From assembly GCA_030739855.1 (NCBI GenBank), contig JASLYJ010000011.1, positions 1 through 50,018 of the forward strand: a stretch of 50,018 nt of DNA. The letters are read 5' to 3'. This DNA comes from Alphaproteobacteria bacterium (GTDB lineage Bacteria > Pseudomonadota > Alphaproteobacteria > UBA11136). Below are positions 14,401 to 48,042 of the stretch, piece by piece (position 1 is the first letter of the stretch; each line of letters opens with the position of its first letter). The translations under genes and the position numbers were made by a program. Under the pieces are notes generated by a model. That model was given only the letters and a program-made list of their open reading frames with translations, was not told where the DNA came from and searched no databases.

Positions 14401-17400
14401 CTAGCTGGCGGTTTTGTCCCCACCTTCGTCATTTCCCTCGCTCTCGCCCTCTTCTTCTGTGGGTAGGCACAACTCCGCCATTTTTTCATAGACGGCATGG
14501 CGTTTTCGAAGGTTGTATTCGGCCTCGGCGACAAGCTTCTCGAAGCGTTCGGGGTCCCGCCGCTGGACCATGGCGAAGCGGTCCTCGGTCATCAGGTAAT
14601 CGGTGAGAGAAATGGTGGGTGGCTTGCTGTCAATTTTAAGCGGTTTTTCACCGGCTTCGAAACGCCGCGGATCGAAACGGTAGAGGGGCCAATAGCCGCT
14701 TTGTACCGCCAGTTCCATCTGACCGATACTCTCGGACAACTCATAGCCATGCTCAATACAGGGAGAGTAGGCAATGACTATAGAGACGCCGTCATATGAT
14801 TCTGCTTCCTTGATAGCGTTGACGGTCTGGATGTCCTTGGCGCCGTAGGCGCACGAAGCCACGTAGATATTACCATAGGCCATGGCCATCAATCCCAGGT
14901 CTTTTTTCGGTAGCATCTTGCCTGCAGTGGCGAATTTTGCCGCTGCACCCATGGCGGTAGCCTTGGATTGCTGGCCACCAGTATTGGAATAAACCTCGGT
15001 GTCCATTACCAGGATGTTGACATCTTGGCCTGAGGCCAGAACATGGTCGAGACCACCATAACCGATGTCATAGGCCCAGCCGTCGCCACCGATGATCCAG
15101 ACATTCTTGCGCACCAAATAATCAGCCAATTGATTGAGCTGCTTCGTATCCGGTCCCTTGAGCTTGGTAAGCTTGGATCGCAGGGTTTTTACCCGCTTGC
15201 GCTGCTCGATGATCCCGGTGTCGTTGCTCATGTCGGCCTCGAGAATTTCCATCACCAGCTTGTCGCCAATCTTAGATGCCAGCTTGGTCATCAGCCTGGC
15301 GGCATGAGCTTTATGCTGGTCGAGAGCCAGCCGCATGCCTAGACCGAACTCAGCGTTATCCTCGAATAGTGAGTTAGACCAAGCGGGGCCGCGTCCCTCG
15401 CAGTTAGTTGTATAGGGCGTGGTCGGTAGGTTTCCACCGTAAATGGTCGAACATCCGGTGGCGTTGGCGAAGATGGAGCGATCACCGTAGAGTTGTGTAA
15501 TTAATTTTATATACGGTGTTTCACCACAGCCGGCACAGGCTCCGGAGAACTCGAACAAGGGCTCGGCAAACTGCGACATTTTGACGTTGCGTTTGAGCAG
15601 GGTGCGGTCGGCCTCAGGGAGATCGAGGAAGAAATCCCAGTTTTCCGCTTCCGGATCGCGCAGGGGGGCATGGGGCACCATCTCTAGTGACAGGCGTTCA
15701 GGGTTTTCCTTGTCCTTTCCGGGGCATATCTTCACGCATAATTCGCAGCCAGTACAGTCTTCGGGGGCAACCTGAACGGTGTATTTAATATTGTCACCGA
15801 ATTCTTTGCCCTTGTAATCCATGGCCTGGAAGGTCTCGGGCTGGCCATCGAGCTTGTCCTTGCCATAGACCTTGATACGAATGGCGGCATGGGGACAGAC
15901 GAAGGCACATTTGTTGCACTGGATACAAAGTTCGGGAATCCAGGTGGGGATTTCTGTGGCCAGGTTACGCTTTTCCCATTGGGTGGTTCCCGACGGCCAG
16001 GTGCCGTCGGTGGGGAAGGCGCTGACGGGGAGAAGATCTCCCTTGCCGGCGATCATCATGGCCGTCACCTGTTTGACGAACTTGGGCGCCTTGTCTGGCA
16101 CAACTGGCGGAATATCAAACTTAGAGGTGGCCTGTTTTGGAATGGAAACCCGCTTCAGATGAGCCAAGGTCTGATCCACGGCAGCGAAGTTCTGGTCCAC
16201 TACCTTTTGGCCTTTCTTGCCATATGTCTTTTCAATGGCGCCCTTAATCTGAGCGATGGCTTCTTCACGAGGCAGGACGCCGGATATGGCAAAAAAACAG
16301 GTCTGCATAATGGTATTGATACGCCGCCCCATGCCGGTTTTTTCGGCTACCTTACGGGCGTCGATGACATAAAGCTTGAGCTTCTTGTCGATGATAGTTT
16401 GTTGCACAGAACGTGGAAGCTTGCCCCATGTCTCGTTCTTGCTGTGAGTGGTGTTGAGCAGGAAGGTGGCGCCGGTGGCGGCACGTTCCAGTACGTCGAT
16501 AGTGTCGAGAAAGCTGAAGACGTGGCAGGCCACAAACTCGGCTTTGTCGATCAAATAAGACGATTGGATCGGACTGGGACTGAAACGCACATGGGAAACG
16601 GTAACGGACCCCGCCTTCTTTGAATCATAGACGAAATAGCCCTGGGCAAAATTGTCGGTATTTTCAGCAATGATCTTGATTGAGTTCTTGTTGGCGCTGA
16701 CCGTGCCGTCGGATCCAAAGCCGAAGAACACCGCCCGCTTCACGCCATCAGGTTCGGTGTTGAAGGATTCGTCTACCTTCAGAGAGAGATGGGTCACATC
16801 GTCGGTAATGCCGACTGTGAAGTGAGGCTTTGGCTTGTTTTCGTTAAGCTCGTCGAAGATAGCCTTGACCATGGCGGGGGTAAATTCCTTGGAAGACAAC
16901 CCATAGCGTCCACCGATGACCACCGGGTCCGTGGCGGCGGGACGCTGTCCGGCGGCCTTGGCCTTGGCCAGCGCTGTGATGACGTCAGTGTAGAGTGGTT
17001 CACCAAGTGCACCTTGCTCTTTTGTTCTGTCGAGCACGGCTATAGAGCGAACGGTAGGCGGCAGGGAGGCAATGAAACTGTCTAGCGGGAAGGGTCGGAA
17101 AAGGCGGACCTTAAGCACACCCACTTTACCAAGTCGATGGTGTTCAGACCTCCTCCGATCACTTTTTTCCCCTTCCTTATTAAGGTAGTCCACTGTTTCA
17201 TGAACGGTCTCGGCGCCCGAACCCATGATGATTATTATGCGCTCGGCTTCCGGATCGCCTGTATAATCGAACAGGTTGTAGCGTCGTCCGGTCAGGGTGG
17301 CAAACTGGTCCATGACCTCTTGGACGTGGTCGGGGCAGACGGTGTAAAAGGAATTGCGCGATTCCTGCATCTGAAAAAAGGTGTCAGGATTATGGGCGGT

Positions 17401-17472
17401 CCCGCGTACTACCGGTTTGTCGGGATTTAGGGCTCTGTCACGGTGGGCGGCGATCAAATTTTCGTCCATCAT
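14401..17472 (-). CDS. nifJ: Pyruvate:ferredoxin (flavodoxin) oxidoreductase, main C-terminal part (domains II-VI)
   Basis: 1023 aa; CIQCNKCAFVCPHAAIR, CTGCELCVKICPGKD, CAGCGETPYIKLITQLYGDR, TPP-binding GGDGWAYDIGYGGLDHVLASGQDVNILVMDTEVYSNTGGQ. In the same frame as the ORF at 17479-18147, separated only by TAG CTC GCC. Confidence 0.95.
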   Translation of the reverse strand: MMDENLIAAHRDRALNPDKPVVRGTAHNPDTFFQMQESRNSFYTVCPDHVQEVMDQFATLTGRRYNLFDYTGDPEAERIIIIMGSGAETVHETVDYLNKEGEKSDRRRSEHHRLGKVGVLKVRLFRPFPLDSFIASLPPTVRSIAVLDRTKEQGALGEPLYTDVITALAKAKAAGQRPAATDPVVIGGRYGLSSKEFTPAMVKAIFDELNENKPKPHFTVGITDDVTHLSLKVDESFNTEPDGVKRAVFFGFGSDGTVSANKNSIKIIAENTDNFAQGYFVYDSKKAGSVTVSHVRFSPSPIQSSYLIDKAEFVACHVFSFLDTIDVLERAATGATFLLNTTHSKNETWGKLPRSVQQTIIDKKLKLYVIDARKVAEKTGMGRRINTIMQTCFFAISGVLPREEAIAQIKGAIEKTYGKKGQKVVDQNFAAVDQTLAHLKRVSIPKQATSKFDIPPVVPDKAPKFVKQVTAMMIAGKGDLLPVSAFPTDGTWPSGTTQWEKRNLATEIPTWIPELCIQCNKCAFVCPHAAIRIKVYGKDKLDGQPETFQAMDYKGKEFGDNIKYTVQVAPEDCTGCELCVKICPGKDKENPERLSLEMVPHAPLRDPEAENWDFFLDLPEADRTLLKRNVKMSQFAEPLFEFSGACAGCGETPYIKLITQLYGDRSIFANATGCSTIYGGNLPTTPYTTNCEGRGPAWSNSLFEDNAEFGLGMRLALDQHKAHAARLMTKLASKIGDKLVMEILEADMSNDTGIIEQRKRVKTLRSKLTKLKGPDTKQLNQLADYLVRKNVWIIGGDGWAYDIGYGGLDHVLASGQDVNILVMDTEVYSNTGGQQSKATAMGAAAKFATAGKMLPKKDLGLMAMAYGNIYVASCAYGAKDIQTVNAIKEAESYDGVSIVIAYSPCIEHGYELSESIGQMELAVQSGYWPLYRFDPRRFEAGEKPLKIDSKPPTISLTDYLMTEDRFAMVQRRDPERFEKLVAEAEYNLRKRHAVYEKMAELCLPTEEEGESEGNDEGGDKTAS

Positions 17473-17478
17473 GGCGAG

Positions 17479-18204
<726 letters not shown>

Positions 18205-22088: not shown

Positions 22089-22898
22089 CTAGCGGTCTAA
22101 GATTAGGACTTCACCACGATTCAGTTCGATGGAATCTCCGCTCCAACGGTGATAACACCCGCTGATCCATGCGTCTTCTATGGGTAGACCAAGTTTGCGC
22201 AGGTGGCGCAGGTAAAGCCGTAGAAAATCAGGGCGGTAGCTACAGGCGTAGGTGAAGGTAGGTAGCATTTCCGTATCTTGCATGGAAATGATGGTGCCTC
22301 GTTTCATGGCCGCGCCAGTACGCCAGCCCATTTCTCCCAGTACGATGATGGTTCCCGCCAGCATATTGATACCGGTGAAATCGCCACAACTCCCTCCCAC
22401 TGCGATTAGGCCATCGCGCATGGTGTTGCCTGCCTCGTTGCCGGCATTGCCGTGGATGATAATCTCTCCGCCAGTGACGCCAACCTGACCGCCGCGATAA
22501 GCGCAGCCCACCATATGTCCAGCGTTGCCCTTAACGGTGATGCGGCCGCCGGACATTTCCGGCCCCACCCAATTGTCGGCATTCTTACCAACAATGATTT
22601 CACCACCAGACATTGCCACCCCCACATGCTGGCCGATACTTCCCTTGATGAGGAGACGCCCTTTCGACATGCTGGCACCTACCATTTTGAAGCGTGAAGT
22701 GTCGCCTTCAAGGCAAATCTCCCCGTTGACTTTTCCTGTGATGCTGAACAAATCACCCACGGTGATTTGTTCGTTGCCATGATGAAGGGGAAGTGCGGAG
22801 ATGTCCTTGAGACTGAGGCCTTCCATTTTGTCGGGACAAATGGAATCGGCCTCTACCGGTACATCAGGCTTTTTCTTCAGGTTTAGTCTTAGGCTCAC
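22089..22898 (-). CDS. fhcC: Formylmethanofuran dehydrogenase / formyltransferase-hydrolase complex subunit C
   Basis: 269 aa of GxGxG-type beta-helix repeats (GNAGHMVGCAYRGGQVGVTGGEIIIHGNAGNEAGNTMRDGLIAVGG), last gene of an Fwd/Fhc operon. Confidence 0.92.
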   Translation of the reverse strand: MSLRLNLKKKPDVPVEADSICPDKMEGLSLKDISALPLHHGNEQITVGDLFSITGKVNGEICLEGDTSRFKMVGASMSKGRLLIKGSIGQHVGVAMSGGEIIVGKNADNWVGPEMSGGRITVKGNAGHMVGCAYRGGQVGVTGGEIIIHGNAGNEAGNTMRDGLIAVGGSCGDFTGINMLAGTIIVLGEMGWRTGAAMKRGTIISMQDTEMLPTFTYACSYRPDFLRLYLRHLRKLGLPIEDAWISGCYHRWSGDSIELNRGEVLILDR

Positions 22899-22909
22899 GG
22901 GTTATTCTC

Positions 22910-23809
22910 CTAAGCTGCCTTGCCGTTTAGAAGCCCGTGTAGGCCGATATGATACTTGCCCAGATCGCCGCCGTAATTGCCAGCGGCGATTTGTTTAATT
23001 CCGGGTTTTACGGCAGCTCGAAGACCGCGCCGCATGGCTTCCTCAACCGCTTCTAAGCTCAGCCCATCTATGACGATTTCCAGCACACAACCGACACCTT
23101 TCACCACATTTGTTTGCTTGGCAAAGCCACGCATGGTGGGACAGTAGGCCTCGTTGGAGGAGGCTGGTAGTTCCTTGTATTTTGAGCCCACCTTGGAACC
23201 TGAACGCACCACACCACCGGGGAAGGGGAGAATTACGCTCGGCACTTCGCGCATGGCCGCAGTAGCGGCTTTTGCGGCGCGCAAGCAGGTGGCAGAATTC
23301 GTTCCCGAGATAAGAATATTGCCACCCCCCACGGCGGGATGGACACCAAAACTATCGGCCACCACGAATTCCCCGTCCATGACAGGAATACGCCAGTAGC
23401 GGGTTCCCTCAAGGCGTTTGCTAATCTGATAGCCATCACCGAAGTAGCGTAGCTTGCCACCAACCACAATATTTTTCTTAGTCTCAAGGCCGTTGAAACA
23501 GGCAGTGGTGGGGCAGGTCATGACGCATTGGCCGATACGTTCCACCAGCCGGTTTGCGACTCCGTTCGGGTCGAAGGCGAATAACAGGACACTAACCCCG
23601 GGACGTCCGTCGGGAGTTTCGTCTGGAGGCAATACGCACTCGATGCCGGCCTCGCATTTGCAGCCGATTACCGAGGTGGCGAAACCGGTGACAGACTGCG
23701 CTGCCGCGTCTGCCCATTCTGGGGTATCCGCGGTGATAATCATCCGCGCGCCCCACATTTCAAAGGCCTCCGCGAAGGTATCGACAATTTCGGTATTCTT
23801 GATGCGCAT
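22910..23809 (-). CDS. fhcD: Formylmethanofuran--tetrahydromethanopterin N-formyltransferase (Ftr/FhcD)
   Basis: 299 aa; NTEIVDTFAEAFEMWGARMIITA, RIGQCVMTCPTTACFNGL, typical Ftr. Confidence 0.94.
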   Translation of the reverse strand: MRIKNTEIVDTFAEAFEMWGARMIITADTPEWADAAAQSVTGFATSVIGCKCEAGIECVLPPDETPDGRPGVSVLLFAFDPNGVANRLVERIGQCVMTCPTTACFNGLETKKNIVVGGKLRYFGDGYQISKRLEGTRYWRIPVMDGEFVVADSFGVHPAVGGGNILISGTNSATCLRAAKAATAAMREVPSVILPFPGGVVRSGSKVGSKYKELPASSNEAYCPTMRGFAKQTNVVKGVGCVLEIVIDGLSLEAVEEAMRRGLRAAVKPGIKQIAAGNYGGDLGKYHIGLHGLLNGKAA

Positions 23810-23831
23810 GATTCTCGCTAAGCGGGTTTTA

Positions 23832-25496
23832 CTATTGCTTGGTGGTGGGGATCACTTCACGTCGCGGAGCATAATGGTCACTCACCGCATAGTTATCGAA
23901 TCTAATTGTGTAGAAATCCTCCACGAAGGGGCGGATCACGTCCTCAATTCCTTCGTCATATAAGGGAGAAACATGGAGGATTTTGCCTTCGTGGTTGTTC
24001 CTGAATTCGTGGTTATCGATGATGAGGCGACCATCCTTTATGACGTAACGTGGAGCGCTGAACATAAGCTCCTTGTCCTCATGTTCGTCGTATATGGTGA
24101 TATCGGCATCGGCGCCCGGTCCAAGATGCCCCTTGTTCTTCAAGCCAAGGATGCGCGCTGGCCCAGCGCGGGTGATGATAGCGATTTCCTGTAACGTATA
24201 TTCTCGCTCCATATGATGCCCACGCTTGATCTTGGCTACAGCTCTCTGGTTTACCGATTCCATCTGTTGTTTGCGGAACTCACGGTCCATTAAGGTGCGA
24301 ATCAGGCGCGGATAGCTGGTAAAGGCTCCACCGTTGGGGTGATCTGTAGACAACACCATGCGCCACGGGTCTTTCGACAGCAAAAATAACTCTAGCCCAG
24401 TGGCCCACTGCAGGGCGTGGGTATAGACACGTTCCTGATAGGCGAAGGGGATGATACCGCAGCCGCTTTCGCATTCGGTATCGGCGTTGACCCAGCGCTT
24501 GTCGTTACTGTAGCGGGTCAGCATCCATGCCAGCGGCGCGTCGGCAGTCATACTGGTGGATTTGCCAAACATAACTTGGCCTACATCGGCAGTAATATTG
24601 GGATTGTTGTTGATGTATTCAGCAATTTCCGGCGCCTTGGAAGTGGGTTCCCCATCCGGCTTTCCGCCATAGCTGTGAAACTGGATATGGGTGACGTGAA
24701 TACGGCGCCCGTCAGCGGCCTTCATAGTTTCCAGTGTTGTCTTGTAATTGCCGCTATGGCCTAGGTTGTTGCAGTGGATATGCACGGGGTGGGGAAGCCC
24801 CAGGTCATCCACAGTATTGACCATAGAGGTAATAATTTTGCGTGGTGTAAGCTGTTCAAACCCGTCGATTTTATCGTTCAGTTGTGTGATAGTGGCATTG
24901 CGGTGCCCTTTCCAGGGCTCATCGCTGCCTGGGCTGACCAGCTTCGTAGTGTAGGACTTTGTAGCGTTGAGCCACCATGCCACGGCATTGCGAATTTCCT
25001 CGTGGCGCTCTTCCTGAAGCATCTTGTAGAGCAGTACATTGTTGCCCATGAGGATATAAAATCCCTTGTCAATAACCGGGGTATCGTCGAGTTCTTCGAG
25101 GGTATGACGGGCCAGAAGAGGCGGGGCTGCAGCTTCCATAGCCGTGGTATAGCCGAGGGTGGCATAGCGGTATCCGGTGGTGAAGGTGGACGGCACGGTA
25201 CCGCCTGTCCCCGAACGAGTGTTTATCTTTTCCAGTTCCATACGGCGGTGGATATCGCGGCGATGATCATCAGGCTGGAGCTTACGGGCGATATTGGCCT
25301 TAGCACCGGCAATGTGACAGTGGATGTCCACACCGCCTGGCATGACAACCATACCTTTTGCATCAACACATTTTGTTTTGGGCGGAACGCTTTTGACGAT
25401 CTTGCCATCCTTGATGCAAATATCGCGTGTTTTGCCATCCACGCCATTGGCAGGGTCATGTACCCTTCCGTTGACGATGCGGAGCGTAGATCCCAT
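23832..25496 (-). CDS. fhcA: Formylmethanofuran dehydrogenase subunit A (amidohydrolase family)
   Basis: 554 aa; MPGGVDIHCHIAGAKANIARKL, HIHCNNLGHSGNYKTTLETM, STDHPNGGAFTSYP. Confidence 0.95.
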   Translation of the reverse strand: MGSTLRIVNGRVHDPANGVDGKTRDICIKDGKIVKSVPPKTKCVDAKGMVVMPGGVDIHCHIAGAKANIARKLQPDDHRRDIHRRMELEKINTRSGTGGTVPSTFTTGYRYATLGYTTAMEAAAPPLLARHTLEELDDTPVIDKGFYILMGNNVLLYKMLQEERHEEIRNAVAWWLNATKSYTTKLVSPGSDEPWKGHRNATITQLNDKIDGFEQLTPRKIITSMVNTVDDLGLPHPVHIHCNNLGHSGNYKTTLETMKAADGRRIHVTHIQFHSYGGKPDGEPTSKAPEIAEYINNNPNITADVGQVMFGKSTSMTADAPLAWMLTRYSNDKRWVNADTECESGCGIIPFAYQERVYTHALQWATGLELFLLSKDPWRMVLSTDHPNGGAFTSYPRLIRTLMDREFRKQQMESVNQRAVAKIKRGHHMEREYTLQEIAIITRAGPARILGLKNKGHLGPGADADITIYDEHEDKELMFSAPRYVIKDGRLIIDNHEFRNNHEGKILHVSPLYDEGIEDVIRPFVEDFYTIRFDNYAVSDHYAPRREVIPTTKQ

Positions 25497-25550
25497 TTAC
25501 GGTTTCTTTCTTGTAATGTTGTCGATGGTTTCCAGGGGGCGGTGTAAGCG

Positions 25551-26930
25551 TTATGCGGCTTTTTGCCTCTTATTGTTGGCACCCTTGGATCTTTTCTTGG
25601 CTATGAGAAGCTGCTCAACTCGTCTGTAAATGGCGGTGATGACTTCTTCATCGCTGGGATACTTAGAATCCAAGCACGTTCTCAATTCGATGGGTACCCC
25701 ATCGGAACGGTAGGCTGTGCCGGGAACATTGATACCATAATGAGCCGTGGTAAAGGCAACCCGGGCCAACTTGGCAGTATGAGTGTATTTCGGGTCTAGA
25801 ACAATCATGGGAATTTTTTTCATATGATCGACTGCGGCCTGAGTGAAGTTAGAGCCCGGGTCGCTGGCAAGGATAAGCCCGGCGTCGGCATCTCCCCGCA
25901 CGAACATGTCCGTTGCCGTAAACTCACCAGGGTTGAATTTTGGATAGCCACGGCTGAAATTCACGCCAAAGGGATATCCAGTTTGCCAGGCGACCACTGT
26001 ATCGGCGCCAGTGACATTGCCGTGGCCACGCATGGGAGTGGCAATAAAATGCGTATATTCATTGAGATCTGACCCCAGTGACAGGATAGCGGCAGAATTG
26101 AAATGCCTGCCACGGGTCATGGTTAACCCCATGCCGAAGAACAGCACGCCATAGCGGCAGTTTTTCATGCGCTCCACAAGATCTTTCATAGTTTTCATGG
26201 ACACACCGGTCTTTTTCTCGATGTTGGGGTCTACATGGCGGTTCTTGACCAAGGCGCGCAACGCCCACAGCAGTTCGAAATCAGCGCCCGGCTTGACCTG
26301 AATGAAAATATCAGCGACGGGCACGCTCTTGGTGTGACGCACATCGATATTGACGATGGTACGGTCCTTCTTACGGTTTGGTGTATACATACCCTTGGCG
26401 GTGACGGCATAGCGGGCGAAATGACGGGGCAGAGATTCCGCAGGATTTCCGCCCCAATAGATGACTAAATCGGCTCGGTTCTTGATCTCGCCCAGGGTCG
26501 CGGTGCTTTCGCCCACCCCCTGGAGCGCCATACCCGTGGGGCCATGACAGACCGAGGTTGTAGAATCAATGGTACCACCCAGCATATCCATCAGCCCCAC
26601 GGCCTTACGCTGGGTCTCGCAGGTGGTGTCGCTCATTCCATAAATAATGGGAAAGCGTGCATTAGCCAGAATTTGTGCAGCTTCTTCCACGGCTTCGGCA
26701 GTGGTAGCTTCCTTGCCGCCAATGAGGGCGAAGGGGCGGTCTTCTTCTTCATAGTTAAGGAATAGGGCCTTGCCCAGAACGCAGGCATTTTTGGCTTTAG
26801 TGATCTTCTTGGCGTCAACGTCCACGGTAAGAACCATATCGTCGCACAGACATCCACAAAACGTGCAGGTTGCGTCCTCTACGATTTTGATGTTGCCTTC
26901 AGATTTAGCCTTTTCTGCCACGCGCATCAT
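25551..26930 (-). CDS. fhcB: Formylmethanofuran dehydrogenase subunit B (molybdopterin oxidoreductase family)
   Basis: 459 aa; N-terminal CTFCGCLCDDM...KNACVLGKALF Fe-S motif and STTSVCHGPTGMALQGVGESTATLGEIKNRADLVIYWGGNPAESLPRH. Confidence 0.94.
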   Translation of the reverse strand: MMRVAEKAKSEGNIKIVEDATCTFCGCLCDDMVLTVDVDAKKITKAKNACVLGKALFLNYEEEDRPFALIGGKEATTAEAVEEAAQILANARFPIIYGMSDTTCETQRKAVGLMDMLGGTIDSTTSVCHGPTGMALQGVGESTATLGEIKNRADLVIYWGGNPAESLPRHFARYAVTAKGMYTPNRKKDRTIVNIDVRHTKSVPVADIFIQVKPGADFELLWALRALVKNRHVDPNIEKKTGVSMKTMKDLVERMKNCRYGVLFFGMGLTMTRGRHFNSAAILSLGSDLNEYTHFIATPMRGHGNVTGADTVVAWQTGYPFGVNFSRGYPKFNPGEFTATDMFVRGDADAGLILASDPGSNFTQAAVDHMKKIPMIVLDPKYTHTAKLARVAFTTAHYGINVPGTAYRSDGVPIELRTCLDSKYPSDEEVITAIYRRVEQLLIAKKRSKGANNKRQKAA

Positions 26931-26993
26931 TTTTCCACCCTTCTGAATAAAACCCGCGAAATAATCTAGCGACAGGTGTTATCTGCGTCACCT

Positions 26994-27338
26994 CTAGCTG
27001 ACGCGTTTCAATTCCACCTCCAGATGCTTGGAAAGGGGCATACCACTTGCTGCGGTGTCCTTTCCCATAAGTTTGCTGGTGGGAGGGCCGTAGGCAATGA
27101 ACATGAGACCTGGAGGCAGGTCCTCTGTCCTGCGCCCCGTGCACTTTACCGTCACCACGCCATCGGCCGAACGAAGCTTCACCTTGCACCCGTCTTCAAG
27201 GCCTAGCCGCGCCATGTCCTCGACGTTGATTTCAACGGTCGTGGTGGCCTCGCGGTAGTCTTTCTTGAACTTGCTGTCAATCAGGCCAACGCCCTGCTTC
27301 GTGGTGCGGCCCGGAACTAGTATCATGGTCTTGTCCAT
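26994..27338 (-). CDS. Formylmethanofuran dehydrogenase subunit D (FwdD/FmdD-like molybdopterin dinucleotide-binding protein)
   Basis: 114 aa from MDKTMILVPGRTTKQGVGLIDSKFKKDYREATTTVEINVEDMARLGLEDGCKVKLRS...VTVKCTGRRTEDLPPGLMFIAYGPPTSKLMG; start corrected from the over-extended ORF 26994-27752; immediately upstream of fhcB. Confidence 0.88.
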   Translation of the reverse strand: MDKTMILVPGRTTKQGVGLIDSKFKKDYREATTTVEINVEDMARLGLEDGCKVKLRSADGVVTVKCTGRRTEDLPPGLMFIAYGPPTSKLMGKDTAASGMPLSKHLEVELKRVS

Positions 27339-27634: not shown

Positions 27635-28054
27635 TCAATGGAACAGCCGGTTCAGTTCTCTCTTGTTGGAGACCAGGAAAGAGAGCGTATAGCGGTCGAG
27701 CACTCCGAGAAAGGAGTCGCGCGCCTCTTCGAAGATGGTCAGAAGTCGGCATCCCTCTCTAATCGGGCAGTAGGTGCCCGCGCAATCGACCACATCTAGA
27801 TTGGCCTCGGTTTTTCGCACCAACTCACCCACATTGACCGATTCAAGAGGTTTGGCGAGCCGTATGCCGCCACCCTTCCCACGCACCGTGGTTACGTACC
27901 CGTGCTTCGCCAAGTTGTGGACCACCTTCACCAGGTGCTGGTGGGAGACATCATAGGCCTTGGCGATCTCGCCAATGGTTGCCAACCGTTCCTGGCTGGG
28001 GGCGAGATATATGAGTACGCGAAGCGAATATTCGGTGAAACGGGTGAGATGCAT
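27635..28054 (-). CDS. nsrR: Rrf2-family transcriptional regulator, NsrR-like (NO-responsive)
   Basis: 139 aa; MHLTRFTEYSLRVLIYLA...HLVKVVHNLAKHGYVTTVRGKGGGIRLA and three-Cys segment CAGTYCPIREGC; divergent from qNOR. Confidence 0.88.
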   Translation of the reverse strand: MHLTRFTEYSLRVLIYLAPSQERLATIGEIAKAYDVSHQHLVKVVHNLAKHGYVTTVRGKGGGIRLAKPLESVNVGELVRKTEANLDVVDCAGTYCPIREGCRLLTIFEEARDSFLGVLDRYTLSFLVSNKRELNRLFH

Positions 28055-28312: not shown

Positions 28313-30676
28313 ATGAGTAAGGAATCCAACGGGAATTCGATCCACCAAAACCTGGCACTGATACTGCTCAACAAGAATTACTGGATCACCCATTTCATGA
28401 TCGTCGTTGTGATCAGCGTGGTGGGATTAATTTATCTCGGCAGGGTGACCTATACGGGTGCCCCTCCGCTGGTAGATTACGTGTCGTCGGCCGGGGATAC
28501 GGTGATTTCCCGCGAGGAAATCAAGCGTGGAGAGGAAGTATTCCACCTCAGGGGCCTGATGAGTTACGGCTCTTTCTGGGGCGACGGGGCGGAACGCGGG
28601 CCGGATTTCTCTGCCGATGCCCTACACCGGACCGTGGTCACCATGAGGTCCTTCTACGAGAACGAGGCCAAGGAAAAAGGTGCCGTAAGCCAATATGACC
28701 AGGACGCTATCGCGGCCCAGGTAAAACGGGAAGTTCACCACAACACATGGGAGGAAGACGCCGACCTTATCCGGATTAACGACGCCCAAATCTATGCCTT
28801 TGAGGAACTGAACGTTCATTACACGAAGATGTTTTCGGACCCCGATTATCCGGAACATTTTATGACTGGATACATTACCGATTCCGAAGATATCCGGGCG
28901 TTAACGGCGTTTTTCTATTGGGGCGGCTGGGTCGCCGCGGCCAACCGGCCGGGCGAGACTTACAGCTATACCCATAACTGGCCCTATGATCCCGATGCCG
29001 GCAACACTCCCACTTCCGCGAATTATATCTGGAGCATTATTTCCATACTCGCGCTGTTCCTGGGTATCGGAGTGGTTCTGTATGTGTACGGCCAAATGAA
29101 ATCACTGGGCGGCGAGCCGTTCTCTGGCAACGGAACCTCGCTGACCACCCATGACCTTGAAAACGAATATGTGCGCCCCACACAGCGTGCCACCTATAAG
29201 TTTTTCGCCCTGGCGGTCATTCTGTTCGGAATCCAGGTTCTGGCGGGTATTATCAGCGCCACCGATTTCGTCCGTCCTTACGGCCTTTATCTGGGTGACA
29301 TCATCCCCTTCACCGTGGCCCGGAGCTATCACACTCTGTTCCAGATTTTCTGGTTCTTTATGTGCTGGGTCGGCTACACCATCTTTTTCCTGCCCCGGCT
29401 GGCGAAGGTTCCAAACGGACAGGCGTTCCTGATAAATCTGCTGTTTGCCCTGTGCATCATCGTCGGCGGGGGGGCGCTGGTGGGTATTTATCTTGGCCAG
29501 ACGGGAGTCCTGACCGGCCCCGCCGCCTATTGGTTCGGCAGCCAGGGTTGGGAATTCATGGAGCTGGGCCGGGCGTTCCAGATTATCCTACTGATGGCGT
29601 TTGCGCTCTGGATAGCGATCATTTATCGCGGCGTGAAACCGTGGCTGACGAAGAAGAACCTGTGGTCCGTTCCGGCATGGCTTCTCTACGGCAGCGGCAT
29701 AATGGTTGCGTTCCTGTTCTTTGGGCTTCTCGTGACCCCGGATACTAACTTCGCCATCGCCGACTATTGGCGTTGGATGGTGGTGCATATGTGGGTTGAG
29801 GTGACCTTCGAGGTATTCACCACCGTCATCGTCGCCTACATGCTGGTCCAGATGGGCCTCGTCACCCGGATGATGGCGGAACGGGTGATTTTCCTCGCCG
29901 TGATACTGTTCCTTATCACCGCGACGCTGGGCATTTCCCACAATTTCTACTGGATCGCCAAGCCGACGGGGATCATCGCCATAGGCAGCGTCTTCTCCAC
30001 CCTTCAGGTGCTGCCTCTGCTTCTGCTGACCCTGGATGCTTGGAAGATGCGACAGGAAGGGGAACGGGCCAACGAATACGTCGCCCAGGGAAAACAGAAA
30101 TTCCTGATGGACGGTGTCTGGATGTTTATCCTCGCCGTCAATTTCTGGAATATCTTTGGCGCCGGGGTCTTCGGCTCGTTAATCAACCTTCCCATCGTCA
30201 ACTACTTCGAGCATGCCACCTATCTCACCGGCAATCATGCTCACGCCGCCATGTTCGGGGTCAAAGGCAACATTGCCTTAGGCGGAATGCTGTTCTGCTG
30301 TATGCATCTGTTCCACAAAGCCAGTTGGAACCCGAAGTTGGTCATGACTTCGTTCTGGTCTCTCAACATCGGACTGGCCTTGATGATGTTTCTCGATCTG
30401 TTCCCGGTAGGCGTTTACCAGCTGGTGGCAGTCCTCCAGGAGGGGCTCTGGTATGCCCGGTCGTATGAGATCGTGCAGGGAGTCGTGTTCCAGACTCTGA
30501 CATATTTCCGCTCGCTGGGAGGGGCCGTGTTCGTCATCGGCGGCCTGTTGCCCCTTATCTGGTTCGTGTTGTCGAGGGGATCTCAGCTTCGTCGCGAAGT
30601 GGAGGTCAAGGACGGTGAGTGGTCCGTCTACGAGAAACATTGGGCGACTCAGGAAGACTCGAAACTTCTGGGATAA
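28313..30676 (+). CDS. norZ: Quinol-dependent nitric oxide reductase (qNOR, cbb3-type subunit I fused to N-terminal extension)
   Basis: 787 aa; LRGLMSYGSFWGDGAERGPDFSADALH, ARSYHTLFQIFWFFMCWVGYTIFFLPRL, HMWVEVTFEVFTTVIVAYMLVQMG, NHAHAAMFGVKGNIALGGMLFC. Confidence 0.96.
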   Translation: MSKESNGNSIHQNLALILLNKNYWITHFMIVVVISVVGLIYLGRVTYTGAPPLVDYVSSAGDTVISREEIKRGEEVFHLRGLMSYGSFWGDGAERGPDFSADALHRTVVTMRSFYENEAKEKGAVSQYDQDAIAAQVKREVHHNTWEEDADLIRINDAQIYAFEELNVHYTKMFSDPDYPEHFMTGYITDSEDIRALTAFFYWGGWVAAANRPGETYSYTHNWPYDPDAGNTPTSANYIWSIISILALFLGIGVVLYVYGQMKSLGGEPFSGNGTSLTTHDLENEYVRPTQRATYKFFALAVILFGIQVLAGIISATDFVRPYGLYLGDIIPFTVARSYHTLFQIFWFFMCWVGYTIFFLPRLAKVPNGQAFLINLLFALCIIVGGGALVGIYLGQTGVLTGPAAYWFGSQGWEFMELGRAFQIILLMAFALWIAIIYRGVKPWLTKKNLWSVPAWLLYGSGIMVAFLFFGLLVTPDTNFAIADYWRWMVVHMWVEVTFEVFTTVIVAYMLVQMGLVTRMMAERVIFLAVILFLITATLGISHNFYWIAKPTGIIAIGSVFSTLQVLPLLLLTLDAWKMRQEGERANEYVAQGKQKFLMDGVWMFILAVNFWNIFGAGVFGSLINLPIVNYFEHATYLTGNHAHAAMFGVKGNIALGGMLFCCMHLFHKASWNPKLVMTSFWSLNIGLALMMFLDLFPVGVYQLVAVLQEGLWYARSYEIVQGVVFQTLTYFRSLGGAVFVIGGLLPLIWFVLSRGSQLRREVEVKDGEWSVYEKHWATQEDSKLLG

Positions 30677-35168: not shown

Positions 35169-37451
35169 TTGATAATCATGAGCCGGCAAAAGAAACGTAA
35201 AACGGCAAGTTTGGCAAAAAAGGGAAAAGGCGTGGTGCCGTCTTCCTCAGGCTCCATTCGTACGCCTCCGTCTCTCAGCGGTGATATGGCCGCGGCTCTT
35301 GCCGAAGCTATCGGACACCACTCGGCGGGTTGTCTGGACGAGGCCGAACGGCTCTACCGGCGCATCCAGAAACAGGCGCCAGACAATCCAGATGTGTTGC
35401 ATCTGTTGGGATATGTGGCGCATCAGAAGGGAGATTCTCGGCGCGCTGTGACCCTGATTCGCAAGTCCCTGACGCGCCAGCCGGATGGGATAGAGGCCAC
35501 TAACAATCTGGGCCTTGCTCTGTGCAGTCTGGGAAGGCTTGATGAAGCAGAAGAATCCTTTCGTAAGGCCCTCGCCTTAAGTCCGGATCTGGCCGACCTG
35601 CATAACAATCTCGGAAGTGTGCTTCAGGAGAAGGGAGCCCTCGAGGAGGCGGAATCATGTGTGCGTCGGGCGCTAGAACTCAAGCCTGACTTTGCTGAAG
35701 CATGGAGCAATCTGGGTGGCATTCTGCAAGAAACGAAGCGTAATAGAGAGGCTGCCGAGGCTTGTGGACAGGCGGTGGAGCTTAACCCTTATCTTCCTGA
35801 AGCACATAACAACCTGGGCCTCGCCTTTCTAGCATTGAAAGAATGGAGGAAGGCGGAGAAGCATTTCAACAAAGCTATAGGTCTGAAGCCAGATTATGCT
35901 GAGGCCTTCAACAATCTGGCAAGTCTGTTCAGCCATTCTGGGAGACTCGATGATGCGGAGTCCTGTTTACGTAGGGCACTGGAATGCCGCCACGACTACG
36001 CGGTGGCCTACGCTAGGCTTGGTAATATATTGAAATACCGAGGAAATCTGGACGAGGCTGAAACTGTTGTACGGCGAGCTATAGAGCTAAAGCCAGAAGA
36101 CGACGAGGCTCATAATTCTTTGGGTGGGATTCTATTGGTTCAGGGCCGTGGCGATGAAGCGGCAAAGGCTTTCAGAAGGGCTATAGCGTGCAAATCAGAT
36201 TCCGTCCATGCCCATTCGAATCTTATTCTCACGCTTCACTACCTACCTGGAACAACTCAGGAGGAAATTTTTAAGGAAATACGCCGCTGGAACACCCAAC
36301 ATGCAGTGTCACAGGCGGAATTTATACGGCCCCATGCCAATGTTCCCGATCCAGAGCGGCGGTTGAAGATTGGCTACGTTTCGGCAGATATGAAACAGCA
36401 TCCTGTGGGATTTTTCTTTCTTCCCGTCATTTCTAACGTGGATAAGAAACGGTTCGAAATTTTCTGTTATGCGAATATGAAAAGTGAGGATGATTTTACC
36501 AACAAGATACGCGCCCACGCCGACCATTGGCGGGATATTTCTTTCATCACCGATGAAGAGGTCACGGAAAAGGTTCGTGCCGACGGGATCGACATCCTGA
36601 TTGAACTAACCGGCCATGCGGCAGACCACCGGCTAGTCATGTTCGCCCGGAAACCCGCCCCTGTTCAGGTTCAAGGTGGTGGACACTATTGTACATCGGG
36701 GCTCGATGTGATGGATTACATTCTCTCCGACGCCACGGAAACGCCCGAGGGAGAGGACCAATGGTTTTCCGAAACGGTTGTACGCATGCCCGATGGATAC
36801 GTCTGCTACGGACCACCGGACTACGCCCCCGATGTAACCTTTCTTCCGGCTTTGGGAAAAGGCTATGTCACTTTTGGTTGTTGTAACAATCTGGCAAAAA
36901 TCAATAGTCAGGTGATGTTGCTATGGGCAGATATCCTCAAAGCGGTTCCTGATTCTCGCCTTTCTCTCCGGACCGACACCCTTGATGACGAGGCCACGGC
37001 ACAGCTTGTTTATGATAGATTTCAAGGGCTTGGCATCTCACCGGAGCGCATTACTTTGGCAGGGAAAGCCCCCCATAAGGCATTTCTGGGCCATTATCGC
37101 GAAATTGATATGGCCCTTGATCCCTTTCCCTATTCCGGGGGACTGACTACCTGTGAAGCACTGTGGATGGGGGTGCCTGTCATTTCCATGGCCGGTGAGA
37201 CCTTTGCCGGACGGCATTCGGCAAGCCACTTGCATAATGTCGGCCTAGATGACTGGGTGGTGCAAACGGCCGGGGATTACCTTTCCCTGGCGAAAAAGCA
37301 CAGTCGCGACCTAGAAAAACTGAGTAGATTGCGCGCATCGCTTCGTGAGAGGATGATAAAATCCCCGCTTTGTGATGGTGTGCGCTACACCCGAAATCTT
37401 GAGGCCGTATACCGCCGCATGTGGCGGGATTGGTGCAATACGGTTTCCTGA
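35169..37451 (+). CDS. TPR-repeat glycosyltransferase, GT41/SPINDLY (O-GlcNAc transferase-like)
   Basis: 760 aa; N-terminal TPR array (EAHNNLGLAFLALKEWRKAEKHFNKAIGLKPDYAEAFNNLA), C-terminal DPERRLKIGYVSADMKQHPVGFF...DPFPYSGGLTTCEALWMGVPVISM. Confidence 0.92.
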   Translation: MIIMSRQKKRKTASLAKKGKGVVPSSSGSIRTPPSLSGDMAAALAEAIGHHSAGCLDEAERLYRRIQKQAPDNPDVLHLLGYVAHQKGDSRRAVTLIRKSLTRQPDGIEATNNLGLALCSLGRLDEAEESFRKALALSPDLADLHNNLGSVLQEKGALEEAESCVRRALELKPDFAEAWSNLGGILQETKRNREAAEACGQAVELNPYLPEAHNNLGLAFLALKEWRKAEKHFNKAIGLKPDYAEAFNNLASLFSHSGRLDDAESCLRRALECRHDYAVAYARLGNILKYRGNLDEAETVVRRAIELKPEDDEAHNSLGGILLVQGRGDEAAKAFRRAIACKSDSVHAHSNLILTLHYLPGTTQEEIFKEIRRWNTQHAVSQAEFIRPHANVPDPERRLKIGYVSADMKQHPVGFFFLPVISNVDKKRFEIFCYANMKSEDDFTNKIRAHADHWRDISFITDEEVTEKVRADGIDILIELTGHAADHRLVMFARKPAPVQVQGGGHYCTSGLDVMDYILSDATETPEGEDQWFSETVVRMPDGYVCYGPPDYAPDVTFLPALGKGYVTFGCCNNLAKINSQVMLLWADILKAVPDSRLSLRTDTLDDEATAQLVYDRFQGLGISPERITLAGKAPHKAFLGHYREIDMALDPFPYSGGLTTCEALWMGVPVISMAGETFAGRHSASHLHNVGLDDWVVQTAGDYLSLAKKHSRDLEKLSRLRASLRERMIKSPLCDGVRYTRNLEAVYRRMWRDWCNTVS

Positions 37452-37578
37452 GACCACCCGGGTTTAGGGAAGATCTGGTTTTTCCTGGTGTGTCTGAAAT
37501 GATATAACAGCGACAAGGCTTGGATTTTATGGGTTTTCCACAAACCGCTAAGACCGCCGCCGTCCAGGGAAGTCTTGC

Positions 37579-39351
37579 ATGAATAAAACATCGGCTAAAG
37601 AGGGTATGCCCCTTGCCTCACTGGATCCTCTCCTGCAGCAGGCCCTTTCCCACCATCAGGCGGGCCGTCTGGCGGAGGCGGTTGGTCTCTACTGCCAAGT
37701 ATTGGATGCCTACCCTGACCATGTTGACGCTTTGAACTTTGGTGGGGCCGCCTTTTTTCAGTCCGGGGAAAATGACCAAGCACTAGAAATGCTCCGCAAA
37801 GCAGTGAAGTTGGCTCCAGACTACGCCGAGGTGCATAACAATCTGGGCAAGGTGCTTCACGAATCGGGTAGTCCCGGGGAATCCCTCCTCTGTTTTGAGC
37901 GGGCCCTGGAACTCAAACCCGATTTCTTGGAGGCGGGGAATAATCTTGGTCTGGCGCTACAAGCTCTGGGCCGTCTCGGGGAGGCAGTGGAGACCTATCG
38001 GAGTATTCTTTCCCACAAGCCTGATATTCCGGAGATTCTGGTCAATCTGAGCCGGGTCCTTCTGGATATGAAGGAGTACGATGAGGCGGAAGTAACTATA
38101 AAACGCACCATCAAGATCTGGCCGCATGCGGTGGCCTATGACAACCTTGCGGTCATTCATATGGCGACGGATAGATACGATCTTGCTGCAGAGGCTTGCC
38201 GTCAGGCCATAGCAAAGGATCCGTCTTATGCTGAAGCCCATAATAATCTTGGGGTCTGTCTAATAAGGATGGGCCAGGATGAGGAAGCCGCCCGTGCCCA
38301 TCGTCGCGCTTTGGAGTTGGCCCCCCACGATATCAAACTCCATTATAATTACGCCCAGGGTCATATATTCTCCACGGATGATCCAGAATTGGAGGTGCTT
38401 GAGAAATTACTGCAGCACGAGGGGCTTCCCGACTATCAAAGAGGGTTACTTCTTTTTGCCCTGGGTAAGGCCCATGACGAGGTCGAAAATTATAACAAAG
38501 CCTTTTCTTTTTACGAGCGTGGTAACGCGTTAATGGCGGAAGGGGTCACATTTGACCGGGAGCGGCATCATGACCTTATCGCTTCAATAAAAAAGGCGTT
38601 TGCAAAGTGTGCTATTTCTGACATAGCCGGAAAAACAGAACCGGGCCCGGTACCTGTTTTCGTTGTGGGCTTGTCACGTTCCGGAACAAGTCTGGCGGGG
38701 TCCCTTCTTTCTCAGCATGATCTGGTTCATGGGGTAGGGGAGAGTGCGCAATGGGTATTATCTCTTGAAGAAATCCTCAAGAAATTTGAAATTCCCGAAG
38801 AGCTTCCCGACGCCGTTTGTTTGCTGGACAAGGCACAGAAAAAGAAGGTCGCGGAGGTGTTCATAGAAAAAATTTCCGGCACCGATTCTCATGATCGCTA
38901 CATAGTGAACACGGCGCCGGAAAATTATTTTTACGTAGGGATGATTTTGGAATCATTGCCCCAGGCAAAAATCATTCATTGCCGGTGGGACACAGTGGAT
39001 ACCGCCCTTTCCATCTTTTTCAGCCGTTATGAACGAGGCCATGCCTACTCCTATGATATTGGCGATATAGCGTCCTATATGGCCGATTATCTGGATTTGA
39101 TGGCCTATTGGGAGAATGGATACGGCGATCGGGTGCTGTCACTCCATTACGAGGATTTAACGGAGCCCACACAGGGAACCTGTGACAGGATTTATCGGTT
39201 CTGCGGGCTCAAAGACGGGGAACTCCTTCCTAATGATCTACTCACAAAAGAATATACAGGGCGCTGGGAGAAATATGAGCCTCATTTGGGACCGATGCTG
39301 GAGGCTTTCCGGGATCATGGACTGATAGCTGAAAACTCTCAGGATTCATGA
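37579..39351 (+). CDS. TPR-repeat sulfotransferase
   Basis: 590 aa; TPR array then VPVFVVGLSRSGTSLAGSLLSQHDLVHGVGE (PAPS-binding P-loop-like) ... NTAPENYFYVGMILESLPQAKIIHCRWDTVDTALSIFF. Confidence 0.9.
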   Translation: MNKTSAKEGMPLASLDPLLQQALSHHQAGRLAEAVGLYCQVLDAYPDHVDALNFGGAAFFQSGENDQALEMLRKAVKLAPDYAEVHNNLGKVLHESGSPGESLLCFERALELKPDFLEAGNNLGLALQALGRLGEAVETYRSILSHKPDIPEILVNLSRVLLDMKEYDEAEVTIKRTIKIWPHAVAYDNLAVIHMATDRYDLAAEACRQAIAKDPSYAEAHNNLGVCLIRMGQDEEAARAHRRALELAPHDIKLHYNYAQGHIFSTDDPELEVLEKLLQHEGLPDYQRGLLLFALGKAHDEVENYNKAFSFYERGNALMAEGVTFDRERHHDLIASIKKAFAKCAISDIAGKTEPGPVPVFVVGLSRSGTSLAGSLLSQHDLVHGVGESAQWVLSLEEILKKFEIPEELPDAVCLLDKAQKKKVAEVFIEKISGTDSHDRYIVNTAPENYFYVGMILESLPQAKIIHCRWDTVDTALSIFFSRYERGHAYSYDIGDIASYMADYLDLMAYWENGYGDRVLSLHYEDLTEPTQGTCDRIYRFCGLKDGELLPNDLLTKEYTGRWEKYEPHLGPMLEAFRDHGLIAENSQDS

Positions 39352-40457: not shown

Positions 40458-40462
40458 GCACT

Positions 40463-45825: not shown

Positions 45826-46806
45826 GTGCGGATGAAACAATTACTGCCTATCCTTGCCCTGTTTGTTGTGCTGGCTGTACCTGAAGGGGCGCTGGCTAAA
45901 GGTACGGGCTATCTTTTCATTAGCAACGAAAAGGACCATACGGTAACGGTTCTCGACAGTAAGACTTTTGAGGTAGTCAAGAACATCCAGACCGGGCGTC
46001 GTCCCCGCGATATGCAGTGGAGTCCGGATAAATCCCTGCTTTATGTGGGTGCTAGTGCGGACAGCCGTGTTGATATCATAGACGTGGCCAGGCTTGAGGT
46101 TGTGGACTACCTCATCCCCGGTGATGATCCAGACCAGTTCGCTGTCACCGAAGACGGGAAAATACTGATTGCCACCAACGAGGATGACAATCTCGCCACC
46201 TTCCTGGATATTTCCGAAAACATCATTCTTGACCAGATTCCCACCGGTGTGGAGCCCGAGGGCGTTACTATCAGCCCCGATAGCAAGAGAGTCTATATCA
46301 CTTCCGAGGTCTCCCAGATGATCCACGTGGTGGATATGGAGAGCCATGAGGTGCTGGCGGACATTCTCGTGGGTTCGCGGCCGCGCCGCGCTTTTTTCAC
46401 TCCCGACGGCAGGGAATACTGGGTCACCAACGAAATCAGCGGTTACGTGAGTATAATCGACACCGAAAAGCTAAAGGTGATCGACGAAGTTCATTTCGAT
46501 CCCAAGGGAGTCCCCGGCGATGTGACCCCGGTGGGGATCGCGCTCGGCCCCGACGGCAAGACCGCTTATGTCACTCTGGGGCACGCCAATCGTTTGGCGG
46601 TGGTGGATGTGCGCACGCGAAAGGTGCGGAGATACCTGCTGGTGGGCACGCGAGCCTGGAATCTGGACTTTTCTGGGGACAAAAAATTTCTCTACGTGGT
46701 CAATTCCGGCAGCGATGATGTTTCCATTATCGATATTGAAGCGGAAAAAGTTTTGAAGACTGTTCCTGTGGGCCGCTATCCTCACGCCCTGAAAGCCGAC
46801 AACTGA
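45826..46806 (+). CDS. YVTN-type beta-propeller protein, PQQ-dependent-catabolism-associated type
   Basis: Secreted (MKQLLPILALFVVLAVPEGALA); repeats such as YLFISNEKDHTVTVLDSKTFEVVKNIQTGRRPRDMQWSPDKSLLYV; next to a PQQ-ADH-type ABC binding protein. Start may be the ATG at 45832. Confidence 0.85.
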   Translation: MRMKQLLPILALFVVLAVPEGALAKGTGYLFISNEKDHTVTVLDSKTFEVVKNIQTGRRPRDMQWSPDKSLLYVGASADSRVDIIDVARLEVVDYLIPGDDPDQFAVTEDGKILIATNEDDNLATFLDISENIILDQIPTGVEPEGVTISPDSKRVYITSEVSQMIHVVDMESHEVLADILVGSRPRRAFFTPDGREYWVTNEISGYVSIIDTEKLKVIDEVHFDPKGVPGDVTPVGIALGPDGKTAYVTLGHANRLAVVDVRTRKVRRYLLVGTRAWNLDFSGDKKFLYVVNSGSDDVSIIDIEAEKVLKTVPVGRYPHALKADN

Positions 46807-46809
46807 TTC

Positions 46810-48042
46810 TTGCTAAAGCGGGCTAGAGGAGACGCTGTGCGCCGATTCTTTTTCATAATGCTGGCTATTGCGTTTTGGCCGGCCATGCAGACGGGATCGG
46901 AGGCAGCCGTGGAGCCCGCACTCCTCGTGATCGGCTATCTGGAGGGCGACTGGACGGCGAGCGAGGAATGGGATCGCCACCCCGCCGATATGGGGCGTTT
47001 GCCCAACTATCTGCCGCACCGGCCTCTCGCCGGTGCTGAGATCGGTATGGATGACGCCCAGTATCTGGGGCGCGGCATGGGGATCACTTATGTCCTGAAA
47101 CGCAGGACGGGGAAGGATGCTGAGGATCTGTTCACGGCTCTAAAGACTCTGAACGGCGAACATGGTGCGGAGGTCTTCCTCGTTGATGCGCCGGCCCCGG
47201 TGATGGCCGAACTGGCGGAGATGAGTTCCAGTCTCGATGTGTTGCTATTCAACGTATCGTCCTATGCCGATTCTCTGCGCGCGGAGGAATGCGCTTGGAA
47301 CATGTTCCATACCCTGCCCAATAACGCCATGCTCATGGACGCCTTGGCCCAGTTCCTGGTGGTGAAGAAATGGCTGCGCGTCTTAGTTCTTGAAGGACCG
47401 CAGGCCGAAGATAGGAAGATGGTGACAGCGTTTAGGCGCGCCGCCAAGCGCTTCGGCCTCAAGATAGTTGATGTACGCCATTTCCTGTTGACCCAGGACC
47501 CGCGGGCGCGGGAATCCAACCGGGTGGAACAGCTTACCTTGGGAGACGCCGATTCTTACGATACGGTTTTCGTGGCCGATGCCCATGGCGAATTCAGCTA
47601 CCGTGTACCCTATAGGACCGTCCTGCCGCGTCCAGTGGTGGGTGCCCGCGGTCTGACCCCGCGAGCCTGGCACTGGTCATACCTGCGTCATGGTGCGCCC
47701 CAGGTCAACAGCCGTTTTGAGCGCAAATACGGCCGCCGCATGGATGACCGCGATTGGGCCGCATGGATCGCGATGAAGTCAGTTTCGGAGGCAGTGTTGC
47801 GCAGGGGATCATCAGAATTGGCTTCCATCCGGGAACATCTCCTCGACCAAGATATTAAGCTGGATGCTTTCAAGGGCGGTGGCTATAACTATCGCCTCTG
47901 GGACAACCAGCTGCGCCAGCCTATTCTCATGACCACAGACAGTTGGGTTACCTCCGTGGTTCCCCACAAGGCGTTTCTCCATGCCGAAAACAAACTCGAC
48001 ACCTTGGGCTTTGACAAACCGGAAACCAGATGCAGTCTTTGA
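46810..48042 (+). CDS. ABC-type substrate-binding protein of the PQQ-dependent alcohol dehydrogenase system type
   Basis: 410 aa; EPALLVIGYLEGDWT...GAEIGMDDAQYLGRGMGITYVL...EVFLVDAPAPVMAELAE...LFNVSSYADSLRAEECAWNMFHTLPNNAMLMDALAQFLVVKKW. Confidence 0.8.
   Translation: MLKRARGDAVRRFFFIMLAIAFWPAMQTGSEAAVEPALLVIGYLEGDWTASEEWDRHPADMGRLPNYLPHRPLAGAEIGMDDAQYLGRGMGITYVLKRRTGKDAEDLFTALKTLNGEHGAEVFLVDAPAPVMAELAEMSSSLDVLLFNVSSYADSLRAEECAWNMFHTLPNNAMLMDALAQFLVVKKWLRVLVLEGPQAEDRKMVTAFRRAAKRFGLKIVDVRHFLLTQDPRARESNRVEQLTLGDADSYDTVFVADAHGEFSYRVPYRTVLPRPVVGARGLTPRAWHWSYLRHGAPQVNSRFERKYGRRMDDRDWAAWIAMKSVSEAVLRRGSSELASIREHLLDQDIKLDAFKGGGYNYRLWDNQLRQPILMTTDSWVTSVVPHKAFLHAENKLDTLGFDKPETRCSL

Follow-up and report, generated by a model that had tools for sequence, protein, structure and literature searches.

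A 50,018-nucleotide stretch of an alphaproteobacterial metagenome-assembled genome (MAG) of the lineage UBA11136 (GenBank assembly GCA_030739855.1, contig JASLYJ010000011.1; hereafter the window) carries a five-gene fwd operon whose sequence supports the encoding of a complete molybdenum (Mo)- or tungsten (W)-dependent formylmethanofuran dehydrogenase core, FwdABCD, together with its own formyltransferase, Ftr. With a probability of roughly 70%, we propose that Fwd and Ftr perform the terminal CO2-forming step of tetrahydromethanopterin (H4MPT)-linked formaldehyde oxidation in a marine methanol-oxidizing alphaproteobacterium. The observations that carry this proposal are the gene content, the intact ligand residues, purifying selection, the loss from this genome of Fhc, the related formyltransferase/hydrolase complex of methylotrophs, and the ferredoxin and FNR genes found in or beside the operons of relatives.

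The fwd Operon and Its Products

The operon occupies positions 22089-27338 of the minus strand as five co-oriented, intact open reading frames in the order fwdD-fwdB-fwdA-ftr-fwdC. A sequence-only reading had reported five tightly spaced minus-strand genes, and its coordinates and intergenic gaps (63, 54, 22, and 11 bp from fwdD to fwdC) were reproduced exactly. The window is one contig (C12) of a 1.41 Mb MAG that is 88% complete (G000), and it was compared with two congeners, Rhodospirillaceae bacterium ARS27 (G001, NZAO01) and Alphaproteobacteria bacterium BS150m-G7 (G002, JADHSZ), with a relative from another genus of the same family (G003), and with a member of a different family (G120). 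Judged by their names, the congeners were probably sampled in the Arabian Sea and at 150 m in the Black Sea, respectively. The five-gene order is repeated in both congeners and in the second family, and partially in the other genus, while the ratio of nonsynonymous to synonymous substitution (dN/dS) against the two congeners is 0.04-0.12 for all five genes, indicating purifying selection. Because gene order is conserved in relatives and each gene is under purifying selection, the arrangement is not a product of chance.

Four of the predicted proteins score above the cut-offs of their family models (Table 1), and FwdA matches Protein Data Bank (PDB) chain 5t5i_A (1e-141). The 114-residue FwdD matches NF042908 at E = 9e-18, which is under that model's strict cut-off, and the model also matches formate dehydrogenases; fold and PDB matches were therefore added to its identification. 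The protein exceeds the Pfam Molydop_binding cut-off at 41 bits, matches FwdD chains in the PDB at E ~ 5e-12, and gives an AlphaFold (AF2) model (mean confidence, pLDDT, of 88) that Foldseek aligns to FwdD of Methanothermobacter wolfeii (5t61_D) with a TM score of 0.90. Its identity as FwdD, a check set beforehand, thus held on the sequence models, the PDB chains, and the fold.

Active-Site Residues

FwdA is identical to the M. wolfeii protein at six of six positions (57, 59, 178, 231, 271, and 385) that we take to be the ligands of the binuclear zinc site in that enzyme. In FwdB, the 4Fe-4S cysteines C22, C25, C29, and C50 are invariant within an N-terminal CTFCGCLCD...C motif, and the Mo/W-ligand motif SVCHGP, with Cys128, aligns with SVCHGP of both M. 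wolfeii and Ca. Ethanoperedens (8rja). The equivalent residue in Ca. Ethanoperedens FwdB, Cys116, is the tungsten ligand (PMC11493965). FhcB from the same organism family keeps the 4Fe-4S cysteines and has an alanine at the metal-ligand position. When PDB matches to the window FwdB are ranked, Fwd chains score 1e-93 to 1e-115 (8rja_B 1e-114, 5t5i_B 1e-107), and Methylorubrum FhcB (6s6y_B) scores 8e-15.

The features expected of a Mo/W Fwd/Fmd enzyme, namely the metal-ligand cysteine, the 4Fe-4S motif, a separate FwdD, and the FwdA zinc-site positions, are all present in the sequence, and those that define FhcABCD (no metal ligand, no FwdD, gene order B-A-D-C) are not. An FhcB identity for the window protein is rejected by its ligand residues, by the PDB scores, and by the far-off FhcB branch. 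The suggestion of the sequence-only reading that a bacterium here encodes a true Mo/W formylmethanofuran dehydrogenase is accordingly supported, at the level of sequence, by ligand residues, FwdD, PDB ranking, and phylogeny.

Phylogeny and Distribution of FwdB

A maximum-likelihood tree was built from 56 FwdB sequences, with no Fhc rows. The window FwdB clusters with those of ARS27 and BS150m-G7 (support 100/99), followed outward by G003 and G120 (100/99), two Planctomycetota (99/97), and Anaerolineae-type Chloroflexota (100/99), and nearly all bacterial FwdB around it bear the metal ligand. The protein groups with bacterial FwdB, at a distance from methylotroph FhcB. The description of the operon as an archaeal-type module needs one refinement: the nearest kin are Planctomycetota and Chloroflexota rather than methanogens.

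The alphaproteobacterial FwdB keep the ligand, unlike planctomycete kin. Two planctomycete sisters lack the ligand cysteine, one from Pirellulales with SVAHGP and one from Kuenenia with AGQAFS (L036 10001-11293; L091 10001-11281), and it is possible that such ligand-less proteins are snapshots of Fwd turning Fhc-like. Elsewhere among bacteria, an in-frame TGA stands at the FwdB metal-ligand codon (Y-TGA-HGP) in Moorella sulfitireducens, a Peptococcaceae MAG, Desulfosporosinus lacus, and a Solidesulfovibrio MAG (L073, L094, L095, L102), and these are probable selenocysteine FwdB. A frameshifted FwdB from African mines, in a MAG titled Ktedonobacter racemifer (L043 10001-11325), lies nearest Anaerolineae, and that title was probably assigned in error.

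Of 385 sampled genomes of the class, the FwdB cut-off was passed by none but those of the window family and G120. The operon neighbors of G120 include three in common with the window, LhgO (53% identity), a lipoprotein (37%), and a porin (42%), and because these are common to both, the fwd operon probably predates the split between the two families. Arrays of large tetratricopeptide repeat proteins also stand near fwd in both alphaproteobacterial families (window 35169-42667; L140 2-4887).

Fwd Alongside and Instead of Fhc

Archaeal-type FwdB and FwdD occur in all four genomes of the family. Both congeners and G003 additionally carry classic Fhc, which adjoins an H4MPT-synthesis gene in G001 and G003. 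In the window genome a single FwdB/FhcB, a single FwdA/FhcA, and a single Ftr were found, all within the fwd operon, as against two Ftr copies in each of the three relatives. In an alignment with colinear flanks, 234 bp of the window genome replaces 7.0 kb of G001 that contains fhcB-A-D-C and one more gene. The simpler reading is that the window genome lost Fhc by a clean deletion of about 7 kb, which would leave Fwd and Ftr as its sole set, because G003, although from another genus, keeps fhcB divergent from the beta-ribofuranosylaminobenzene 5'-phosphate (RFAP) synthase gene as G001 does. In G120, fwdDBA-ftr-C is followed by an FprA gene, and no FhcA was found there.

Possible Redox Partners and Neighboring Genes

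Ferredoxin-linked reductases stand beside Fwd in three arrangements, which fits a real dehydrogenase rather than a hydrolase. Within the window genus, the operon adjoins a flavoprotein resembling fused NfnAB and a pyruvate:ferredoxin oxidoreductase (PFOR; Table 1). Synteny of the NfnAB-like gene with fwd is kept in G001 and G002, making its product a candidate ferredoxin/NAD(P) partner of Fwd. In G003, one contig (C131) ends in fhcB-fhcA-fwdD-fwdB, and another (C225) starts in ftr and continues through fwdC, an FdxA-type ferredoxin, an FprA/adrenodoxin-reductase-type reductase, fhcD, and fhcC. This FprA is a NADPH-ferredoxin reductase by PDB match (9e-112), and the FprA of G120 is of the same kind and 59% identical to it. 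The window PFOR gene is interrupted in frame by one TAG, at codon 223, where the G002 copy is open, reflecting either a mutation or an assembly error.

Table 1. Predicted features of the fwd operon and its surroundings in the window
Feature	Position	Strand	Evidence
fwdD, molybdopterin-dinucleotide-binding subunit, 114 aa	26994..27338	-	NF042908, Pfam Molydop_binding, PDB, AF2/Foldseek
fwdB, predicted catalytic Mo/W subunit with N-terminal [4Fe-4S] and Cys128, 459 aa	25551..26930	-	TIGR03129 (493 bits, above cut-off), PDB, motifs
fwdA, predicted binuclear-zinc formylmethanofuran hydrolase subunit, 554 aa	23832..25496	-	TIGR03121 (680 bits, above cut-off), PDB 5t5i_A, Zn-ligand positions
ftr, predicted formylmethanofuran:H4MPT formyltransferase, 299 aa	22910..23809	-	TIGR03119 (424 bits, above cut-off)
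fwdC, GXGXG subunit, 269 aa	22089..22898	-	TIGR03122 (272 bits, above cut-off)
GltD/FNR-type flavoprotein resembling fused NfnAB, 1183 aa	18502..22053	+	NfnI alpha 5jca_L 7e-18, beta 5jca_S 1e-8
NifJ-type PFOR	14401..18147	-	TIGR02176 (1416 bits)
NsrR-like member of the Rrf2 superfamily, a possible regulator, upstream of fwdD	27635..28054	-	PRK11014 NsrR (140 bits, below cut-off); Rrf2 superfamily (above cut-off)
Beta-propeller and substrate-binding proteins associated with pyrroloquinoline quinone (PQQ) alcohol dehydrogenase (methanol-oxidation context)	45826..48042	+	TIGR03866 (347 bits, above cut-off); TIGR03863 (391 bits, below 413.6)

Adjoining the NsrR-like regulator and the fwd operon is a 787-residue homolog of the quinol-dependent nitric oxide reductase qNor (window 28313-30676, plus strand). 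Relative to Geobacillus qNor it carries the substitutions H328T, E332R, H560N, E581Q, and D746G. The first three agree with the pattern published for nitric oxide dismutase (Nod) (PMC10286720). Close homologs occur away from fwd in G002 (91%) and G003 (86%), whereas searches of G001 and G120 gave none. The alphaproteobacterial order UBA11136 has been reported to carry Nod genes and to oxidize methanol in oxygen-deficient zones (PMC11374530, PMC12542740).

Methylotrophic Context of the Host

The sequence-only reading had named partner genes to be sought in the genome, which was found to have mch, mtdB, fae, genes for H4MPT and methanofuran biosynthesis, and MoaA/MobA. One contig (C65) encodes beta-RFAP synthase, a methylene-H4MPT dehydrogenase with an Mpt_N domain (MtdB), Mch, an MptN-like ligase, Fae, MfnF, and MfnB, and another (C54) encodes MoaA, MobA, a TupB-like permease, and a NAD-linked formate dehydrogenase. 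Relatives carry a full-length XoxF-like PQQ alcohol dehydrogenase, and in G120 a PQQ alcohol dehydrogenase lies about 13 kb from Mch on a contig other than that of fwd. A search for CooS-type carbon monoxide dehydrogenase (TIGR01702) returned no match in the five genomes, archaeal CdhA and AcsB not having been searched separately. Near the H4MPT cluster on C65 (L025 3224-7215) lie genes for a phosphoenolpyruvate mutase fused to a nucleotidyltransferase (NTP-transferase) domain, a phosphonopyruvate-decarboxylase-like protein, and a class-V aminotransferase, which likely serve phosphonate (2-aminoethylphosphonate, 2-AEP) biosynthesis.

Proposed Function and Its Alternatives

In the proposed pathway, XoxF would produce formaldehyde, Fae would load it onto H4MPT, and MtdB and Mch would convert the bound C1 unit to formyl-H4MPT. 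Ftr would then transfer the formyl group to methanofuran, and FwdA, with its two zincs, would hydrolyze formylmethanofuran inside the complex, so that the trapped formate could be oxidized to CO2 at the Mo/W-bis-pterin site of FwdBD, at Cys128. Electrons would leave through the [4Fe-4S] cluster of FwdB, pass to a soluble ferredoxin, and from there reach NAD(P)H. We infer the direction of the reaction, the identity of the metal, ferredoxin as the acceptor, and the role of the NfnAB-like protein. As Fwd has replaced Fhc in this genome, the last step of methanol oxidation probably runs in the archaeal way. On a broader scale, the odds seem about even that a marine, probably oxygen-deficient-zone lineage of Alphaproteobacteria exchanged Fhc, which releases formate, for an Fwd that retains formate and reduces ferredoxin, and left intermediates among living relatives: genomes with both complexes, Fwd nested in the fhc operon with ferredoxin and FprA, and Fwd alone.

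Several observations weigh against this proposal. The XoxF of the window genome is known only as a 160-residue N-terminal fragment (PQQ alcohol dehydrogenase) that ends contig C65. A NAD-linked formate dehydrogenase is still encoded, and formate metabolism therefore continues. The nested operon of G003 is joined by inference over an assembly gap, with fwdA missing there, and with the window MAG 88% complete, absences beyond the spanned deletion are not absolute. Finally, no FwdF/FwdG polyferredoxin was found in a search confined to the operon. FwdE/F/G are also missing from the bacterial fwd operon of Hakuba (PMC7325909), and FwdF is replaced in Ca. Ethanoperedens (PMC11493965).

The sequence-only reading left open whether the module is an entry or an exit for C1 units, and of the two, exit is the likelier because no CooS-type enzyme was found while XoxF and Fae are present. 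An entry role, in which Fwd would reduce CO2 to formylmethanofuran and formyl-H4MPT with PFOR-derived ferredoxin and supply C1 units for assimilation, draws on the reversibility of Fwd, on the argument that direction depends on the electron carrier and not on the active site (PMC11493965), and on the PFOR and NfnAB-like genes that adjoin the operon. We consider it unlikely, given that the PFOR of this assembly has a stop codon, that the gene context is one of XoxF, Fae, MtdB, and PQQ-system genes, and that fwd of G003 sits within an oxidative fhc operon; a Wood-Ljungdahl route of CO2 fixation is disfavored by the lack of any CooS match in the five genomes.

Somewhat less probable still is that the complex behaves like Fhc, with FwdA hydrolyzing formylmethanofuran, formate escaping, and the Mo/W site idle or vestigial. 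Bacteria as a rule use Fhc, and the formate dehydrogenase would suit such a role, but FwdD, the 4Fe-4S cysteines, and Cys128 are all retained under purifying selection in a genome with molybdenum cofactor genes, and the window FwdB has kept the ligand, which is gone from the FhcB of sister genomes and from the FwdB of planctomycete relatives. That the contig was misbinned or is a contaminant from another phylum might be suspected from the Chloroflexota and Planctomycetota relatives of FwdB outside the clade. This explanation is highly improbable and, within the reach of the data, was rejected: the same operon and flanks occur in two independently sampled alphaproteobacterial MAGs, the LhgO, lipoprotein, and porin neighbors are common to the second family, and the GC content of the operon equals that of its flanks.

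If terminal oxidation by Fwd is correct, methanol oxidation in these bacteria ends by reversed methanogen chemistry and would give low-potential ferredoxin instead of formate. The CO2/formylmethanofuran couple lies at about -530 mV and the CO2/formate couple at about -430 mV. A different energy yield of methanol oxidation at scarce oxygen is predicted, with reduced ferredoxin rather than formate as the product. The variety of Fwd and Fhc combinations further offers a natural experiment in which to ask why methylotrophic bacteria abandoned the Mo/W dehydrogenase.

Comparison With Known Systems

In a 2016 survey, Chistoserdova described Proteobacteria as lacking fwdD (PMC5020050), which is countered by intact fwdD in two alphaproteobacterial families with Fhc alongside or deleted. 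No report of alphaproteobacterial Fwd was found in the literature searched, which covered relevant work only in part, and as far as searched, what is new is the occurrence of Fwd in Alphaproteobacteria and XoxF methylotrophs, where it coexists with, is nested in, or replaces Fhc.

The window operon resembles archaeal Fwd/Fmd of M. wolfeii (5t5i) and Ca. Ethanoperedens thermophilum (8rja) in subunits A-D, the metal-ligand and 4Fe-4S cysteines, and the zinc ligands. It differs from them in lacking FwdF/FwdG, in having ftr inside the operon, in its bacterial nearest kin, and in its host, a XoxF methylotroph in which CooS was not detected. FhcABCD of Methylorubrum extorquens (6s6y) has homologous A, B, C, and D (Ftr) subunits at the same pathway position, and such a complex forms the second set in G001, G002, and G003; however, its FhcB is without the metal ligand, FwdD is missing, and the order is B-A-D-C. 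The order D-B-A-Ftr-C is itself common to several bacterial and archaeal loci, and the closest likeness in layout is to a fwdDBA-ftr-fwdC operon with the ligand cysteine described in Hakuba Actinobacteria (PMC7325909) and to Anaerolineae loci (L035, L038) that likewise keep the ligand. Unlike the window host, which is methylotrophic (Fae, XoxF), the Hakuba Actinobacteria have Wood-Ljungdahl genes and no H4MPT synthesis genes, and what further sets the alphaproteobacterial system apart from both Hakuba and Anaerolineae is that Fhc coexists with Fwd in the window's sister genomes.

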